Below, one piece after another: positions 43,303-53,353 of a DNA stretch of 53,731 bases (its first letter is position 1; each line of letters starts with the position of its first letter). The notes beneath the pieces are model-generated. The model was given only the letters and a program-made list of their open reading frames with translations, was not told the DNA's origin and ran no database searches. The position numbers and the translations under genes are program-made. The stretch comes from Pelagibacteraceae bacterium (GTDB taxonomy: Bacteria; Pseudomonadota; Alphaproteobacteria; HIMB59; GCA-002718135), in the NCBI GenBank assembly GCA_017639935.1, contig JAGFWP010000043.1, positions 1 through 53,731 of the forward strand, in the 5' to 3' direction.

Positions 43303-44382
43303 CTAATTTGGGTAAACTCGTATGTTTTCTGCTGGAAAATAAATATTCAATTTATCATTCAAGGCCATATTAATTTTTTGTGCATTAAAGTTTGGCACAT
43401 CTGCCATAATTAAGTCTTTAGTTACACCACTAGCTTCAAGATAAATTCGCTGAAAAGAACCTAGAAATTCTATTTCTTTAATTGTTACCTCTAAAACATT
43501 GTTATCCGATTTTTCAGCATTTAATTGAATATCCTCAGGTCTGATAGCAAGTTGTACGGATTGATTATTTTGAAAGTCTTGAGTATCACAATCAATGTTT
43601 ACACTAATACAATGTGCTTTATTGTTCTTAGCAATGGTTGCTGGGATAAAATTCATAACACCAATAAAATCAGCTATAAACGGTGAATTAGCTCTCTTAT
43701 ATATTTCAGTAGGAGTTCCAACTTGAATTATTTCACCATCTTTCATCACAAAAATTCTATCAGCCATTGTTTGTGCTTCTTCTTGATCATGTGTTACCAT
43801 AATAGTTGTGACACCAAGTTTTCGTTGAAGATTTTTAATTTGTTTCCTTAAAAAAACACGTACTTTTGCATCAAGAGCTGACAATGGCTCATCAAGTAAA
43901 AGTAATCCTGGTGATGTTGCAAGGGCTCTTGCTAAAGCAACTCGTTGTTGTTCTCCTCCGGATAGTTGATTTGGATATTTTTTGGAGTGCTCTCTTAAAC
44001 TAACTAAATTAAGTAATTCGCCTACTCTTTTAATTATATCATGCTTGTTCCATTTATTATTTGATAATCCATAAGCAATATTTGAAAAAACAGACAAATT
44101 TGGAAACAGTGCATAGGATTGAAAAACTATACCATAATCACGACTTGATGGTGGCAAGTTTGATATATCGATTTTTTTTTGAATTACAGATCCACTTGAC
44201 TGTATTTCCAATCCAGCAATGCATCGTAACAATGTTGTTTTACCACAACCTGAGGGACCAAGAAAACAAACGAATTCTCCCTCTTGAATATTAATTGAAA
44301 TATTCCGAATTGCTTCAAAAGCGCCAAATGACTTTGAGAGATTGTTAGTTACTAAATAAGATTCTTCTTTTTTTTCTAACAT
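43303..44382 (-). CDS. phnT: 2-aminoethylphosphonate ABC transporter, ATP-binding protein
   Basis: This 359-residue ATPase has Walker A GPSGCGKTTLLR, signature LSGGEQQRVALARALA, Walker B LLLLDEPLSALDAKVR, the H-loop TMVTHDQEEA and a C-terminal TOBE domain. It belongs to the FbpC/PotA/PhnT group that energises binding-protein uptake of anions and small molecules. It is the only ATPase in the cluster and faces away from the binding-protein and permease genes across a 170-base region, so the system has split transcription. The AEP assignment rests on the neighbours (PhnW, PhnX), not on the ATPase itself. Confidence 0.8.
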   Translation of the reverse strand: MLEKKEESYLVTNNLSKSFGAFEAIRNISINIQEGEFVCFLGPSGCGKTTLLRCIAGLEIQSSGSVIQKKIDISNLPPSSRDYGIVFQSYALFPNLSVFSNIAYGLSNNKWNKHDIIKRVGELLNLVSLREHSKKYPNQLSGGEQQRVALARALATSPGLLLLDEPLSALDAKVRVFLRKQIKNLQRKLGVTTIMVTHDQEEAQTMADRIFVMKDGEIIQVGTPTEIYKRANSPFIADFIGVMNFIPATIAKNNKAHCISVNIDCDTQDFQNNQSVQLAIRPEDIQLNAEKSDNNVLEVTIKEIEFLGSFQRIYLEASGVTKDLIMADVPNFNAQKINMALNDKLNIYFPAENIRVYPN

Positions 44383-45476: not shown

Positions 45477-46511
45477 ATGAGTAAAATACATCGAGTAATA
45501 CTAAATGTAATAATTGGTTTCGTTACTTTTGTTGCCTTTTGTGGATCTTCATTTGCTAAAACGGATTTGCTTGTTTACACAGCGGTTGAAGCTGATGAGC
45601 TAGCCATGTTTAAGGCAGAATTTGAATCTGACTACCCAGATATTAATATCAGTTGGGTAAGGGATTCAACAGGAATCGTAACTGCAAAACTGCTAGCTGA
45701 AAAAGATAATCCACAAGCAGACATTGTTTGGGGTTTAGCGGCGACAAGTCTAGTGCTTTTGGCGAACGAAGGATATTTTCAAGGATATGCTCCTGTAGGC
45801 GTAGATGCGCTAGATCCACTTTTTGTTGACCCGGCAAATAACCCTCCACAATGGGTTGGTCAAAGAGCATGGATAGCAGCGGTATGCTACAATACAGTTG
45901 AAGCAGCAAAGCATAATCTTCCAGTGCCTAGTAGCTGGAGCGACTTAACTGATCCAGCATATGCTGGACATGTGATTATGCCAAATCCAAATTCATCTGG
46001 TACAGGATTTTTGGATGTATCCAGTTGGATACAAATATGGGGTGAAGAAAAGGCATGGGCGTTTATGGATGCATTGCATGAAAATATTTCACGCTATACT
46101 CATTCAGGATCCAAACCTTGTAAGCTTGCTGCTGCAGGAGAAACTCCGATCGGGATATCTTTTGCCTATCGTGGAGCTAAGTCCAAAAATGCGGGAGCGC
46201 CACTTGAAGTCATTGCACCGTCAGAAGGTGTAGGCTGGGAAGTGGAAGCTTTCGGTATTGTGCACAATACAAAAAATCTTGATGCAGCAAAAAAATTAGC
46301 TGATTGGTCTGTAACAAGAAAGTCCAATGAAATTTACAATCAAGAATATGCTGTTGTTGCTATGCCAGGCGTTGCAAAACCTGTTGAAAATTTTCCACCA
46401 GATATTGTTGAGAAAATGATTAATAATGATTTTGCATGGGCTGCAGCTAACAGAATGGCAATACTTGCGGAATGGCAAAAAAGATATGATTCCAAGTCAG
46501 ATCCTAAGTAA
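45477..46511 (+). CDS. phnS: 2-aminoethylphosphonate ABC transporter, periplasmic binding protein
   Basis: This 344-residue protein has a signal peptide (MSKIHRVILN..., cut after SSFA at residue 27) and an extracellular solute-binding fold of the iron/AEP type: LLVYTAVEADELAMFKAEFE, WVRDSTGIVTAKLLAEKDNPQADIVWG and MPNPNSSGTGF. It is the substrate receptor of the importer (PhnS/AepX type). A perfect AAAGGAGG ten bases before the ATG is one of the strongest ribosome binding sites in the window, fitting the high level needed for a binding protein. A terminator-like hairpin follows at 46542-46573. Confidence 0.85.
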   Translation: MSKIHRVILNVIIGFVTFVAFCGSSFAKTDLLVYTAVEADELAMFKAEFESDYPDINISWVRDSTGIVTAKLLAEKDNPQADIVWGLAATSLVLLANEGYFQGYAPVGVDALDPLFVDPANNPPQWVGQRAWIAAVCYNTVEAAKHNLPVPSSWSDLTDPAYAGHVIMPNPNSSGTGFLDVSSWIQIWGEEKAWAFMDALHENISRYTHSGSKPCKLAAAGETPIGISFAYRGAKSKNAGAPLEVIAPSEGVGWEVEAFGIVHNTKNLDAAKKLADWSVTRKSNEIYNQEYAVVAMPGVAKPVENFPPDIVEKMINNDFAWAAANRMAILAEWQKRYDSKSDPK

Positions 46512-46629: not shown

Positions 46630-48342
46630 ATGACCAATCAAAGCCTAGCATCTAATAATACTCCTAAACATAAAGTTACATTTAAAGCTAGTCGCGATGA
46701 TTTACAGATGCGTTTATTTATGGGAATCATTGCTCTTTATCTGATTATTGCTGTTGCCTTTCCCCTTTATGCCATGTTTTCAAAAAGTCTTGACAACAGA
46801 GATGGTGTTTTTGTCGGAATAGAAAACTACATTCATTATTTTTCAACGCCCGCTCTATTTTATTCAATATATAACAGTTTATTTGTTTCTATTATTACAA
46901 CTATTATCACTGTTTCCCTTGCTTTTACATTTGCTTATGCCCTAACAAGAAGTTGCATGGTTGGTAAAACTTTTTTTAAAACTATTGCAATGATACCAAT
47001 CTTGGTACCTTCGCTTCTTGCAGGTATTGCCCTTGTTTATCTTTTCGGTAATCAAGGTGTAATCAGATCGGCATTATTTGGACACTCAATATACGGCCCA
47101 ATTGGTATCATTATTGCAGAAACTTTTTATACTTTTCCTCATGCGCTACTAATTATTATGACTGCATTTTCTATTGCTGACGCACGAATGTATGAAGCTG
47201 CAATATCCTTGCGGGCAAGTCCATTAAAGATTTTCTTTAGTGTAACATTGCCTGGCATTCGCTATGGATTAATTAGTGCCGCCTTTGTTGTTTTTACTTT
47301 GGTAATCACTGATTTTGGTATTCCAAAAGTTATTGGAGGAAAATTTAATGTATTAGCAGTAGATATTTACAAACAAGTCATTGGACAACAAAATCTACAA
47401 ATGGGAGCTGTCGTCAGTGTCGTTCTTCTTATTCCTGCTATGTGCGCTTTTGTTGTTGATCGTTTTGTACAAAAAAAACAAGTTACACTTTTATCATCAA
47501 GAGCTGTTGTTTTTGAACCCAAGAAAAAAATTGGTTTTGATTTATCAATGTTTTTATACTGTTTTCTTGTATCAATTTTTATAGTTACTATCCTGGGTAT
47601 GTGCCAATTTGCTGCACTCGTAAAAATGTGGCCGTATAATATGTCCTTAAGCTTAAATAATTATCAGTTTGATCTCATGGATGGAGGGGGGTGGAAATCA
47701 TATTATAATTCTATACGATTAGGAGTTTACACAGCCCTCTTTGGTACCATTATTGTTTTTTGTGGCGCGTATCTTGTGGAAAAAGGCAGAGGAATGAATC
47801 TGGGCAGAAATATATTTCATTTTTTAGCAATGATGCCCATGGCAGTCCCTGGTATGACTTTGGGACTTGCGTATATTTTTTTCTTTAATAATCCAGCAAA
47901 TCCACTGCATTTCATTTATGGATCAATGTCCATTCTGGTAATTTGTACAATTGTACACTTCTATACTGTTTCCCATCTAACCGCAGTAACAGCCTTGAAA
48001 CAAATAGACAAAGAGTTTGAATCGGTGTCTGCTTCACTCAAGCAGCCATTTTATCGAACCTTTTTTCGTGTAACGACACCGATCTGCCTTCCGGCAATTT
48101 TTGAAATTAGCATTTATCTTTTTGTCAATGCAATGACCACAGTATCCGCAGTTGTCTTTTTATACAGTGCCAACACAAACCTGGCATCAGTAGCAATCTT
48201 AAACATGGATGATGCTGGTGACATAGCCCCTGCCGCGGCTATGGGTATGATGATTTTTTACACTAATGCATTCGTTAGAATTGTCTATATTATTTTAACC
48301 AAAAAAATACTCTTCAAGACACAAGCATGGCGTAAAAAATGA
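46630..48342 (+). CDS. phnU: 2-aminoethylphosphonate ABC transporter, fused double permease
   Basis: This 570-residue protein contains two complete permease domains of six membrane segments each. Each domain has the EAA loop: YEAAISLRASPLKIFFSVTLPGI in the first (about 190-215) and EFESVSASLKQPFYRTFFRVTTPI in the second (about 460-485). Iron and AEP importers of this subfamily typically carry such a double-length subunit. It forms the membrane channel with the ATPase at 43303-44382 and the binding protein upstream. A TATAAT lies upstream (about 46606-46611), so a second promoter is possible. Confidence 0.85.
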   Translation: MTNQSLASNNTPKHKVTFKASRDDLQMRLFMGIIALYLIIAVAFPLYAMFSKSLDNRDGVFVGIENYIHYFSTPALFYSIYNSLFVSIITTIITVSLAFTFAYALTRSCMVGKTFFKTIAMIPILVPSLLAGIALVYLFGNQGVIRSALFGHSIYGPIGIIIAETFYTFPHALLIIMTAFSIADARMYEAAISLRASPLKIFFSVTLPGIRYGLISAAFVVFTLVITDFGIPKVIGGKFNVLAVDIYKQVIGQQNLQMGAVVSVVLLIPAMCAFVVDRFVQKKQVTLLSSRAVVFEPKKKIGFDLSMFLYCFLVSIFIVTILGMCQFAALVKMWPYNMSLSLNNYQFDLMDGGGWKSYYNSIRLGVYTALFGTIIVFCGAYLVEKGRGMNLGRNIFHFLAMMPMAVPGMTLGLAYIFFFNNPANPLHFIYGSMSILVICTIVHFYTVSHLTAVTALKQIDKEFESVSASLKQPFYRTFFRVTTPICLPAIFEISIYLFVNAMTTVSAVVFLYSANTNLASVAILNMDDAGDIAPAAAMGMMIFYTNAFVRIVYIILTKKILFKTQAWRKK

Positions 48343-48366: not shown

Positions 48367-49773
48367 ATGACAACAATACTGCCATTTTGGTTTTCAGACG
48401 CTTTAAAAAAAGAGAAGAAAACTAAAATTAATAAATTAAAAAATAATCTTCATACTGATATTTGCATCGTGGGAGGGGGTTATACTGGTCTATGGACTGC
48501 AATTCAGTTAAAAAAAAAACAACCATCCTTAAATATTGCAATAATTGATAAGGGGTTGTGCGGAAGTGGCGCATCTGGACGCAATGGCGGATGTATGCTT
48601 CCTGTATCGCCGAAATTTTCTGCAATGAAAAAAATCGTAGGTGAAGCTGATGCCATTTTAATGGTAAAAGCAACCGAACAAGCGCTCTTTGAAATAAAAT
48701 ATTTTTGTAATGAAAATAATATTGATGCGCAAATTCGTTTGGATGGAAATCTATATACGGCAACTAATAAAGCGCAAATAGGGAGATTTGAAGCAGTAGT
48801 TAAGGATTTAGAAAGGAAGGGAATTAATAATTGGGAAAGATGGTCAAAGAAAAAGGTTCAAAAACATTCGGGGTCGCAAAAAAACATTGATGGTTATTTT
48901 TCTCCTCTCTCCGGCAGTCTTCATCCTGGTCTTCTGGTCCGCGGGTTAAAAAAGATAGCAGAAAAAAAGGGGGTGCAAATTTTTGAAAATACTCCCATGA
49001 TTAAGATTGAAGAAAATAAAAAAGTTGTTGTGCAAACAAAAAGGGGGGCAATCACATCAAATAAAGTTGTTATGGCTATTAATGTCTGGATGCCCCAATA
49101 TTTTCCATCTTTATCTCGCGCAGTTGTATTAGTTTCTTCTGATATGATCATCACTGATCCCATTCCTGAACAATTAGATCAAATTGGTTTTACAGATGGA
49201 AAAGTAATTTTAGACACGCGTTTATTTACACACTATTACCGCACGACGATTGACGGGCGGTTAATGTTGGGAAAAGGAGGCAATCTTTTTTCCTTTAATA
49301 ATAAAGTCATACAAGCCTATGATGAGGCAAGTCGGTATGAAGAATTATTAAAAAATTCCTTTGATCGATTTTTTCCTTCACTTTGTTCTGTTCCATTTAT
49401 GCAATCTTGGAATGGGCCGTCTGAGCGGACTAAAACAGGCTTTCCCTTTTTTGGTCGTTTAAAGGATAAATCTAATATTGTTTATGGTTTTGGTTATTCA
49501 GGTAACGGCATATTACCAACCTATGTGGGAGGAAAAATATTATCTTCTATGGTTTTGGATGAAGATAACGAATGGACGCGAAGTTCATTTTGTAAAGGTC
49601 CTCTTGGTTTGTTTCCTCCTGAACCTTTTAGATGGATTGGCGCCATAACTATTCGTAATGCCGTCATGCGAAAGGAAACAGCGGAGGATATGGGTTTGCG
49701 GCCCTGGTGGATTGATGCCAAACTCGCTCAACTTGCAACATCAGTTGGACGATTGGATAAATCTAGTTATTAA
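48367..49773 (+). CDS. FAD-dependent amine oxidoreductase (DAO family), possible PbfD-type enzyme
   Basis: This 468-residue protein has the dinucleotide-binding start CIVGGGYTGLWTAIQLKK (GxGxxG near residue 37), then IIDKGLCGSGASGRNGG, a hallmark of the DAO/PuuB/OrdL group, and a C-terminal YGFGYSGNGILPTYVGGKIL, the second FAD-binding stretch. Such enzymes oxidise primary or N-methylated amines to aldehydes. In an AEP cluster, the parsimonious reading is oxidation of AEP or N-methyl-AEP to phosphonoacetaldehyde, as described for PbfD-type proteins. It lies 24 bases after the permease and 20 before the kinase-like gene. The substrate is inferred from context only. Confidence 0.78.
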   Translation: MTTILPFWFSDALKKEKKTKINKLKNNLHTDICIVGGGYTGLWTAIQLKKKQPSLNIAIIDKGLCGSGASGRNGGCMLPVSPKFSAMKKIVGEADAILMVKATEQALFEIKYFCNENNIDAQIRLDGNLYTATNKAQIGRFEAVVKDLERKGINNWERWSKKKVQKHSGSQKNIDGYFSPLSGSLHPGLLVRGLKKIAEKKGVQIFENTPMIKIEENKKVVVQTKRGAITSNKVVMAINVWMPQYFPSLSRAVVLVSSDMIITDPIPEQLDQIGFTDGKVILDTRLFTHYYRTTIDGRLMLGKGGNLFSFNNKVIQAYDEASRYEELLKNSFDRFFPSLCSVPFMQSWNGPSERTKTGFPFFGRLKDKSNIVYGFGYSGNGILPTYVGGKILSSMVLDEDNEWTRSSFCKGPLGLFPPEPFRWIGAITIRNAVMRKETAEDMGLRPWWIDAKLAQLATSVGRLDKSSY

Positions 49774-49793: not shown

Positions 49794-50666
49794 ATGAATA
49801 ATAGCATTGAAATATTAATCCGCTCATTGCCTGTCTGGAAAGGTGACATTAATATTAAAACCATTGATGGAGGAATCACTAATCAAAATTTTTTGGTTCA
49901 AGAAAAATCAAAAAAATTTTTTGTAAGATTGGGGAATGATATTCCCGAACACAACGTTTCACGATCTAATGAACTGATAACAAACAAGGCTGCCTATGAG
50001 GTTGGCGTGAGTCCCGCTGTTGTGTACAATTCAAAAGGTGTTTTAATTCTTGATTATATTGAAGGGGTTACTCTTTCAGCTGAGGAAATAAAGGGTAGGT
50101 TAGAATCAATTGTTCCTCTTCTTAAAAAAATACATTATGAAATTCCAAAAAAACTTTACGGACAATCACATATTTTTTGGGTTTTCCATATAATAAAAAA
50201 CTATGTAAAATTTTTAAAAGATCATAAAAGTTCATACACGCACTTGCTTCCAGATTTGTTATCCCAAGCAGACAAGCTAGAGATGAATTCCTCACCATAT
50301 GAGATAGTTTTTGGCCACAATGATTTACTTCCTGCTAATTTTCTGGATGATGGAACTCGCTTATGGATAATTGACTGGGAGTATGCCGGATTTAATACTC
50401 CGCTGTTTGACTTGGGTGGACTTGCATCCAACAGTAATTTTTCTGGAGAGGAGGAATCATATTTATTGGAAAATTATTTTGAAAAAAAAATAAATGAAGA
50501 ATTGTTGTCACAATACTATTCTTTAAAATGTGCTTCATTGCTTAGAGAAACAATGTGGAGCATGGTATCTGAATTAACCTCTAAAATTGATTTTAACTAT
50601 TCAAGATACACTCAAGAAAACTTAACTAAGTTTAACGATTCATATAAAAAACTATCACTTAAATAA
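49794..50666 (+). CDS. Choline-kinase/APH-like phosphotransferase
   Basis: This 290-residue protein kinase-like-fold enzyme has the N-terminal GGITNQNFLV (nucleotide loop, 26-35), the Brenner-type HNDLLPANFL (catalytic Asp 177) and IIDWEYAG (metal Asp 194), then LFDLGGLASN. These are the LicA/choline-ethanolamine kinase motifs. It would phosphorylate a hydroxyl on a small amine-bearing molecule. Inside a phosphonate operon, 8 bases before phnW, its substrate is not obvious. Candidates are ethanolamine, choline, or a hydroxylated AEP. No ChoP-transfer genes are near. Confidence 0.8.
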   Translation: MNNSIEILIRSLPVWKGDINIKTIDGGITNQNFLVQEKSKKFFVRLGNDIPEHNVSRSNELITNKAAYEVGVSPAVVYNSKGVLILDYIEGVTLSAEEIKGRLESIVPLLKKIHYEIPKKLYGQSHIFWVFHIIKNYVKFLKDHKSSYTHLLPDLLSQADKLEMNSSPYEIVFGHNDLLPANFLDDGTRLWIIDWEYAGFNTPLFDLGGLASNSNFSGEEESYLLENYFEKKINEELLSQYYSLKCASLLRETMWSMVSELTSKIDFNYSRYTQENLTKFNDSYKKLSLK

Positions 50667-50673
50667 ATGTAAA

Positions 50674-51792
50674 ATGATGCTAAGTTCTCTTATGGATAAA
50701 AAATTATTAACTCCGGGACCTCTTACAACATCTAAAACAACAAAAGAAGCAATGCTGCGTGATTGGGGTTCGCGTGATATCAATTTCATTGAATTAAATA
50801 AATCTATCCGAAAATCACTTATCGAACTCATTGACGGAGAAAATGTATTTGAATGTGTTCCTATGCAAGGTAGTGGAACCTTTGCTGTTGAAGCAATGAT
50901 TGGTTCTCTCACAGAAAAAAAATCAAAAATATTAATATTAATCAATGGCGCCTATGGACAACGAATGAAAAAAATATGTGAATACCATAATCGTCCTCAC
51001 ATTGTGTATGAAGTCGCTGAACACGAAATACATGACTTAATGGAAATAGAAAGTATTATTGATAGTAATAAAGATTTGACTCATGTTTTTGGTGTATACT
51101 GTGAAACAACATCAGGAATACTAAATCCGATTAAGGCCATAGCTGATTTAATTAATAAGAAAAAATTGTCTTTTTTCATTGATGCTATGAGTGCTTTTGG
51201 GGCATTGCCCTTAAGTGTAAAAAATTTATCATTTGATGCTGTGGCGGCCTCTTCAAACAAATGCTTAGAGGGAGTTCCTGGTGTGGGATTTGTTCTAATG
51301 AAAAAAACTATTATTGAAAATACTAAGGGTAATTGTCAATCTTTAAGCTTAGATCTATTTGATCAGTGGTATGCTATGGAGAAAAATGATCAGTGGCGCT
51401 TTACCCCTCCAACTCATGTTTTAGCTGCATTTTATCAAGCATTGAAAGAACATAATGCTGAAGGAGGCATAGAAGGCAGGCATCGTCGATACATACAAAA
51501 TTGTAATATTATATGTAAAGGAATGAAAGAAATGGGCTTTAAACAATTATTGCCTGATCATCTTCAGGCACCAATCATCATCACTTTCATACAACCTGAT
51601 GATCCAAATTTTAAATTTAATCATTTCTATGATTCTTTAAGCGAAAAAGGTTTTTTAATTTATCCAGGAAAACTGACAATTGCGAATACATTTAGGATTG
51701 GATGCATAGGACATTTAACCTCAAACGACATGTATAAAGCCCTTGAAGCTATTAACGAAACAATAGAAAAATTAAACATACAATTAAATTAA
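50674..51792 (+). CDS. phnW: 2-aminoethylphosphonate-pyruvate aminotransferase
   Basis: This 372-residue class V aminotransferase shows the PhnW start LLTPGPLTTS followed by AMLRDWGSRD, QGSGTFAVEAMIGSL, D170 in FFIDAMSAFGALP and the PLP lysine K196 in AASSNKCLEGVPG. It moves the amino group of AEP to pyruvate, giving phosphonoacetaldehyde and alanine. PhnX, 721 bases downstream, uses the product. The start could be the first ATG (50674) or the seventh codon (50692); neither has a clear Shine-Dalgarno. Confidence 0.95.
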   Translation: MMLSSLMDKKLLTPGPLTTSKTTKEAMLRDWGSRDINFIELNKSIRKSLIELIDGENVFECVPMQGSGTFAVEAMIGSLTEKKSKILILINGAYGQRMKKICEYHNRPHIVYEVAEHEIHDLMEIESIIDSNKDLTHVFGVYCETTSGILNPIKAIADLINKKKLSFFIDAMSAFGALPLSVKNLSFDAVAASSNKCLEGVPGVGFVLMKKTIIENTKGNCQSLSLDLFDQWYAMEKNDQWRFTPPTHVLAAFYQALKEHNAEGGIEGRHRRYIQNCNIICKGMKEMGFKQLLPDHLQAPIIITFIQPDDPNFKFNHFYDSLSEKGFLIYPGKLTIANTFRIGCIGHLTSNDMYKALEAINETIEKLNIQLN

Positions 51793-51797
51793 AGTTT

Positions 51798-52436
51798 ATG
51801 TCTTCTATTAATAATGTTGAAATTCCTATTATTGAAGCAACAAATGATAATCTTAAAGGTTATGGTTATTTGGTTGATGATTTCGACCAATGTGAAATTG
51901 AAATTGCAAAATGGCCTAAACAAGGATGGAGAGAAATTGATGAAGGTACGGGCAATGAAGGTGGAACGACTGAGGGACCGTTTGAGGCATGGTGGGATAA
52001 GGGTATTTTATATGGCAGAAATAATGCAGTGGAACATAAAAGTGAATACGATCAAGATGGAAAATACTTACTTGGCTATAGTTATGATCCAAACGAGCCT
52101 AATAAAAATTTAACTAAAGACGATCCTGAAAGAATATATATTTGGCATGTAAATTATCACCCTGATGGAGGTCAATTATTTTTTCCCAATGATAAAAAAT
52201 CATTTATTTCTCCACTTGCACTTCCGGGCGACGACATTCAGCCTAATAATTTTATAGCATTTTATTTTAATGGATCTCAAGGGTTATATATTCATCCTAA
52301 TATATGGCACGAAGGAATTTTCCCTACACAAGGAAGTGCAATATTTAAAGGAAAACAAGGAAAGGTTCACGGACGTGTGAGTATAGACCTGTTGAAAGAA
52401 TTTAATTCACTCCTTTATTTTAAAATATCTCCTTGA
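51798..52436 (+). CDS. AllA/ureidoglycolate lyase-like cupin protein
   Basis: This 212-residue protein has the pattern of the ureidoglycolate lyase (AllA) family: an N-terminal IIEATNDNLKGYGYLV, a central FISPLALPGDD, then GLYIHPNIWHEGIFP (the H-P-x-x-W-H core) and VHGRVSIDLLKEFNSLLYF at the end. It is longer than AllA (about 160) through an insertion around residues 45-120. It lies six bases after phnW and 77 before phnX. No other purine or allantoin genes are near, so classical ureidoglycolate cleavage is unlikely. An AEP-related hydrolase, lyase or chaperone role is my inference. Confidence 0.7.
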   Translation: MSSINNVEIPIIEATNDNLKGYGYLVDDFDQCEIEIAKWPKQGWREIDEGTGNEGGTTEGPFEAWWDKGILYGRNNAVEHKSEYDQDGKYLLGYSYDPNEPNKNLTKDDPERIYIWHVNYHPDGGQLFFPNDKKSFISPLALPGDDIQPNNFIAFYFNGSQGLYIHPNIWHEGIFPTQGSAIFKGKQGKVHGRVSIDLLKEFNSLLYFKISP

Positions 52437-52513: not shown

Positions 52514-53353
52514 ATGAACAAATACGTTGAAGAAAAGAGATATCGGGGGAAAGTTCAGGCACTAATTCTTGACTGGAGTGGTACGACAGCTGATGCCTAT
52601 GTTGTTGCTCCAGCGGTTGTTTTTGTTGAAGTCTTTAAACGTCAAAATGTTGAAATTTCTATGGCCGAAGCTCGTGGTCCCATGGGTTTGCGAAAAGACC
52701 TTCACATTAAAGCACTAACAGAAGTTGATGAAATTAAAGAACGATGGAAAAATGTTCATAGCAAATATCCTGATCAAAGTGATGTTGATCGAATGTTTGC
52801 AGATTTTGTTCCTTTGCAACTTGATTGTTTGAGAAAATACACAACTCTCCTGCCGGGAGTTGCCGAGGTTACTCAACGTTTACAAAAAAAAGGCATCAAA
52901 ATCGGAAGCACAACGGGTTTTCTTCGTGCAATGGTTGATATACTGGAGGAAGATGCGGCTAAACAAGGTTATAAACCTGATGCTTCCGTTGCCGGAGATG
53001 AAGTGATTAATGGAGCGCGTCCTTCCCCTCATATGGTTTTTAAGAACTTGGATATGTTGAATATCACTCCTATTCACTCAGTGATCAAGGTTGATGATAC
53101 AGTTTCAGGCGTGGGTGAAGCTGTAAATGCTGGTTGCTGGGGAGTTGGTGTTACACGGTACTCAAACTATATGGACGTTGATACGCCCGAGGATGGAGAA
53201 AAACTCTCTGATGATGAAATTGCAAAACGACTAGCAAAAACAAAAGACATGCTTGAAAAGGCCGGGTCTCACTATGTGATAGACAGCATCGCCGATATTG
53301 AACCTGTTGTCGAAGATGTGAACCAGCGTCTAGCTCGAGGAGAAAGACCATAA
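52514..53353 (+). CDS. phnX: Phosphonoacetaldehyde hydrolase
   Basis: This 279-residue HAD-superfamily protein has nucleophile D20 in LILDWSGTTADA and K61 in GPMGLRKDLHI. The 41-residue spacing between them is the same as in characterised PhnX (Asp12, Lys53), where the lysine forms the Schiff base. It cleaves phosphonoacetaldehyde to acetaldehyde and phosphate. A good AAGGAG lies eight bases before the ATG. Codon use is a little richer in GC than the ribosomal block. It is the convergence point of the PhnW and PbfA routes. Confidence 0.95.
   Translation: MNKYVEEKRYRGKVQALILDWSGTTADAYVVAPAVVFVEVFKRQNVEISMAEARGPMGLRKDLHIKALTEVDEIKERWKNVHSKYPDQSDVDRMFADFVPLQLDCLRKYTTLLPGVAEVTQRLQKKGIKIGSTTGFLRAMVDILEEDAAKQGYKPDASVAGDEVINGARPSPHMVFKNLDMLNITPIHSVIKVDDTVSGVGEAVNAGCWGVGVTRYSNYMDVDTPEDGEKLSDDEIAKRLAKTKDMLEKAGSHYVIDSIADIEPVVEDVNQRLARGERP

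Follow-up and report, generated by a model that had tools for sequence, protein, structure and literature searches.

2-Aminoethylphosphonate (AEP) is described as the commonest phosphonate of biological origin and as an important phosphorus source for marine bacteria (PMC8154272, PMC8316502), and according to a statement quoted in PMC10734472, AEGEAN-169/HIMB59-type bacteria, to which the DNA studied here apparently belongs, judging by the names of its relatives, are mostly phosphonate consumers. The transaminase PhnW has several recurrent, dispensable partners (PbfA, PbfB/C/D and PbfF), which occur in genomes with either the PhnWX or the PhnWYA route and are PLP, FAD and NAD enzymes. The PhnW partner described here shows the same pattern of association, but is a cupin. 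Our literature search found no paper linking phnW to this cupin, and the papers defining the Pbf enzymes do not mention it. The closest characterised relative of this protein is AllA (EC 4.3.2.3; PF04115; PDB 1xsq, 1yqc, 2bdr), whose substrate is ureidoglycolate, a glyoxylate hemiaminal from which it frees urea (PMC3793230). A second precedent is DUF4867 (SftX/SqvB), an AllA-related cupin of sulfoquinovose degradation, where as here such a protein is attached to a pathway, in that case for an organosulfonate, with no obvious missing step (PMC11968277); the authors of that work note that AllA, KdgF and sugar ring-opening involve the same bond-making and bond-breaking steps (PMC11968277).

The window, by which we mean the whole stretch of 53,731 nucleotides analysed (contig JAGFWP010000043.1 of the Pelagibacteraceae assembly GCA_017639935.1), holds a 212-codon ORF with an ATG start at 51798-52436 on the + strand. 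The original prediction of an AllA-type cupin of undescribed role inside an AEP operon, between phnW and phnX, was borne out. The phnW gene (2-aminoethylphosphonate--pyruvate transaminase, 50674-51792, +; TIGR02326 475 bits, NF010006 515 bits, both over cut-off) stops 5 bp before the cupin gene, and phnX (phosphonoacetaldehyde hydrolase, 52514-53353, +; TIGR01422 297 bits, cut-off 220) begins 77 bp after it. Upstream on the same strand are genes for an AEP substrate-binding protein, phnS2 (45477-46511; TIGR03261 494 bits, over cut-off), an AEP ABC transporter permease, phnU2 (46630-48342; TIGR03262 799 bits, over cut-off), an FAD-dependent aminophosphonate oxidoreductase of the Phn_aa_oxid type (48367-49773; TIGR03329 672 bits, cut-off 632.8) and a choline-kinase/APH-like kinase (49794-50666; PF01633 84.8 bits), with the AEP transporter ATPase gene phnT2 divergent from them (43303-44382, -; TIGR03265 494 bits, over cut-off). 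We considered whether phnW could instead encode a ureidoglycine-glyoxylate aminotransferase, and rejected this because two PhnW equivalog cut-offs are passed and AEP transport genes lie alongside.

The cupin ORF is a genuine gene rather than a chance reading frame, since relatives at 62-79% identity occupy the same place, on the same strand, in dozens of genomes. Its product scores 34 bits with Pfam PF04115 (Ureidogly_lyase; gathering score 23), through residues 117-179 only (63 residues, profile positions 72-134 of 162), and reaches 32.5 bits against the cut-off of 275 for the NCBIfam ureidoglycolate-lyase equivalog. All 23 members of our family alignment (A3) match PF04115, and a Pfam search with them at E 0.1 returned nothing further, the DUF4867 model included. 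Two AlphaFold models gave pLDDT values of 82 and 87, the latter for an AF2 model with pTM 0.86. The top five Foldseek matches are AllA chains (E about 1e-7, TM 0.69-0.73 over the AllA length), with DUF4867 (PDB 9gyy) a weaker match at E 1.8e-3. As modelled, the protein has an AllA-type cupin fold.

Within this predicted common fold, alignment of the new family with canonical AllA identifies shared residues H121, P122, Q126, F128, P130, W170 and H171, corresponding to the HP-x3-Q-x-F-x-P and W-H motifs. The two groups differ in the E-x-H-P motif, where all eight canonical AllA sequences have E and all 26 members of the new family have N (N119), and the DF-x-x-DR motif of canonical AllA was not found in the 26 aligned members. 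The new family has conserved blocks of its own, W39-P40-x-x-G43-x-R45, N75-x-A77-V78 and Q187-G188-x-V190-H191-x-R193, within which W39, P40, R45, N75 and H191 are new invariants. The motifs named in the original prediction fared differently from one another: H-P-x-x-W-H is present at H166-H171, and its W-H part is common to AllA, while VHxRVS is confined to the new family and does not belong to the motifs of AllA. A single insertion of about 70 residues had also been predicted, but the alignment instead gives about 45-50 residues more than AllA, distributed over several blocks, mainly 37-54 and about 73-88. By analogy with the E/H/E/H site of DUF4867, N119, H121, Q126 and H171 are putative metal-site positions. 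The 2His-2Glu site itself is not kept, DUF4867 has no Pfam sequence match to the family, and its pathway and taxa are different.

The only characterised family matched is that of ureidoglycolate lyase, and one rival reading is that the protein retains this canonical function and sits in a phosphonate operon by chance. In a tree of 26 family members and eight canonical AllA sequences, of which the E. coli sequence was confirmed in its middle part only, the two groups split with 100/100 support, and the equivalog cut-offs are widely missed by the new family, in which N invariably replaces E in the first cupin motif. Over 43-53.7 kb of the window, the part that was inspected, no ureide genes were seen near the cupin, as the original prediction had stated; this does not extend to the genome, in which another contig (locus L216, contig C16) carries a full-length canonical AllA (137.8 bits) beside an allantoicase that passes the Pfam cut-off, in a cluster with ORFs that read as xanthine dehydrogenase-like, HIU hydrolase-like, allantoinase-like and OHCU decarboxylase-like. 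On finding this AllA and its ureide cluster, we rejected the cupin as the ureidoglycolate lyase of the source organism. Allantoicase does occur in 12 of 23 cupin-positive genomes, which might be taken to favour the canonical function, but in all 12 a further gene, for a full-length canonical AllA, stands next to that for allantoicase, and the remaining 11 have no allantoicase. The family is thus not found mainly beside allantoin genes; it is linked to phnW, and the canonical paralogue occupies the place beside allantoicase. One cupin locus (L126:6608-7843) has a gene of the hydantoinase/allantoate-amidohydrolase type immediately before the cupin, again as the canonical function might lead one to expect, and a close homologue lies 7 kb from the cupin in another (L026). 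A tie to this gene was considered and set aside, the two being adjacent in one locus only. In view of the 12 separate AllA genes and the 11 genomes without allantoicase, the canonical function of ureidoglycolate lyase is very improbable for this protein. It belongs to a distinct paralogous family, separate from true AllA.

In close relatives the cupin is consistently paired with phnW. Eighty loci were fetched from named genomes of relatives. Both genes are present in 75, and every one of these has the cupin immediately after phnW, in the same orientation, at a gap of -17 to +11 bp. What surrounds the pair varies, with six downstream arrangements among the 75 loci; upstream, 70 loci have a divergent gene for a Phn-HD oxygenase and others the FAD oxidase or the kinase. 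The oxygenase, for example at L011:6220-6795 (-), scores 201 bits with TIGR03276 (cut-off 215), and this gene, common in relatives, was not found in the source genome. The FAD oxidase and kinase are missing from most loci of the window's family, where phnW and the cupin stay. A special tie to phnX, as the original prediction had implied, did not hold up: phnX adjoins the pair in the window only, and relatives have PhnY and PhnA encoded nearby. The conserved unit is therefore phnW with the cupin, and the phnX neighbour is peculiar to the source genome.

The window phnX was probably acquired recently, as indicated by its GC content of 0.42 in contrast to 0.32-0.34 in neighbouring genes. A horizontal origin, with replacement of phnA-phnY, is suggested by its 75% identity to the PhnX at L200, from a different alphaproteobacterial family, and by its being the sole PhnX among 22 genomes searched of the window's bacterial family. 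The phnW-cupin pair was in that case probably retained through a switch of downstream route, and this points to a function at PhnW or at phosphonoacetaldehyde (PAA). It could be proposed instead that the cupin is an alternative C-P bond-cleaving enzyme which replaces PhnX, as the 21 further genomes searched of the window's family have no phnX and yet keep the cupin beside phnW. However, genes for PhnY and PhnA lie nearby in those 21, the window phnX itself adjoins the cupin, and we found no positive locus with the cupin as its sole candidate for this step, so that we consider replacement of PhnX extremely improbable. As the cupin is found with both the PhnX and the PhnY-PhnA routes, it is not the C-P-cleaving step.

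The association with PhnW extends to distant genomes, and the scoring of co-occurrence envisaged by the original prediction gave a strong result. Among 385 alphaproteobacterial genomes sampled, of which 23 are cupin-positive (21 outside the window's family) and 362 negative, PhnW passes its cut-off in 20/23 positives and in 53/362 negatives (p = 3.8e-13), by Fisher statistics that ignore the tree and treat kin genomes, which are non-independent, as separate observations. With the window's family left out, PhnW is present in 18 of 21 positives (p = 8e-12), or 19 if a PhnW truncated at a contig end (G288) is counted. Counted by family, the figures are 10/12 cupin-positive against 26/162 negative families (p = 2e-6). 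In one genus (that of G336; 65 genomes), PhnW occurs in 51 of 54 positives but in only 4 of 11 negatives (p = 5e-5), the 51 including one (G852) whose PhnW spans two contigs; high-quality assemblies give 35/36 against 1/8 (p = 2e-6), and of the three positives without PhnW, two are only 60-74% complete. Taken without tree correction, these figures indicate a co-occurrence of the cupin with phnW beyond shared ancestry. It was also found in seven Paraburkholderia replicons, and a phylum-wide sample added one more positive, a non-alphaproteobacterial genome with PhnW. Neither PhnW nor PhnA was found in two cupin-positive genomes of a single genus (G251 and G343).

This co-occurrence is not a matter of gene order outside the lineage of the window. 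In none of 22 distant loci examined does a phn gene adjoin the cupin, which was never seen beside phnW outside the window's family and near kin, and in the well-assembled G413 and G805 of the G336 genus the two genes are about 1 Mb apart. A LysR gene is divergent from the cupin in six of the 22 distant loci, from three families. Four of these regulators were scored, and the best model for them is that of the AEP-associated subfamily TIGR03339 (phn_lysR) at 259-269 bits, the next model reaching 145-150; they miss its cut-off of 341, but so, at 320-340 bits, do the LysRs that these lineages have next to phnW. Among 20 phnW loci of cupin-positive genomes, phnA-phnY adjoins phnW in 15 and phnX in two, and adjacency of phnA-phnY is commoner with the cupin than without it (15/20 against 4/20, p = 0.001). 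A tie to the PhnY-PhnA route alone was rejected nonetheless, as the window and two other positives have phnX. Only 20 of 73 PhnW genomes have the cupin, and it is therefore dispensable. On the evidence of co-occurrence and pairing, we consider it very probable that the cupin belongs to AEP/PhnW catabolism. Association alone cannot name its substrate.

That neither the PhnWX nor the PhnWYA route has a missing step, together with the dispensability of the cupin, its strict pairing with phnW in one lineage and the non-catalytic nature of many cupins, could indicate a regulatory protein that senses a metal or substrate, or binds PhnW, without catalysis. In contrast, H121, Q126 and H171 are invariant across 26 divergent members, which suggests a working active site and leaves a purely regulatory role improbable. 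We tentatively propose, with slightly less than even confidence, that the cupin represents a distinct, previously undescribed family of AllA fold with an accessory enzymatic role in the phosphonate catabolism that PhnW initiates.

As to what such an enzyme might do, AllA converts a hemiaminal of the form R-CH(OH)-NHR' to an aldehyde and an amine-type leaving group. In cells with PhnW, the amine AEP and the aldehyde PAA coexist, and by general chemistry such a pair forms hemiaminals and imines. The cupin would act on PAA, the PhnW product that the two routes share, or on a compound that equilibrates with it; most likely it would break the hemiaminal bond between PAA and an amine such as AEP, or dehydrate PAA hydrate. 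PAA would thereby be held as the free aldehyde, the form needed by PhnX and PhnY. Such an activity would be useful yet dispensable and would serve PhnX and PhnY alike, which fits its presence in 20 of the 73 PhnW genomes. The chemistry itself, either splitting of PAA hemiaminals or a reaction of the hydrate, is by analogy with AllA possible but unlikely, and a shade less probable again is the full proposal of a new enzyme class, a cupin lyase that would split PAA hemiaminals, hydrates or a similar adduct and so keep the aldehyde available to PhnX or PhnY. Dehydration of PAA or hemiaminal exchange may need no enzyme, and our literature search found no information on PAA hydration.

The main rival to action on a PAA adduct is that the cupin provides a side entry, converting another natural phosphonate, such as a stereoisomer or a hydroxylated or N-substituted form of AEP, to AEP or PAA. 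Ancillary enzymes which feed PAA or AEP are common in such clusters, for example PbfA, PbfC/D and PbfF (PMC8154272, PMC10590968, PMC12366243), and like the cupin they accompany both PhnWX and PhnWYA; the window operon also has the FAD aminophosphonate oxidase and the kinase. However, it is phnW and the cupin that persist in the family of the window where these two are mostly absent, and the known substrates of side-entry enzymes fit hemiaminal-type chemistry in no obvious way. We regard such a side entry as possible but unlikely, to the same degree as the PAA hemiaminal or hydrate chemistry.

Judged by sequence, what is new here is a family of AllA fold that is associated with a different pathway and has an apparently altered active site. 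If the accessory-enzyme role is true, the annotation 'ureidoglycolate lyase' would be corrected in hundreds of genomes, false inference of ureide use from it would stop, and there would be a concrete test case for the fate of free PAA in PhnW-dependent cells. If the cupin is indeed a lyase of PAA adducts, the PhnW routes would have their first assigned cupin and the AllA fold a second pathway role. Given the parallel with the AllA-related DUF4867 in sulfosugar degradation, solving one may explain the other.

Two further features of the source genome deserve mention. The purine-to-glyoxylate cluster (L216) is kept, together with a BMP-type ABC transporter, in a streamlined marine genome of 1.3 Mb. 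The best NCBIfam model for the kinase at 49794-50666 is the guanitoxin kinase GntI (NF041256), with 148.8 bits far under its cut-off of 357; this kinase may be another undescribed enzyme of AEP clusters, as a homologue with 51% identity is found near phnW in a different family (L181).
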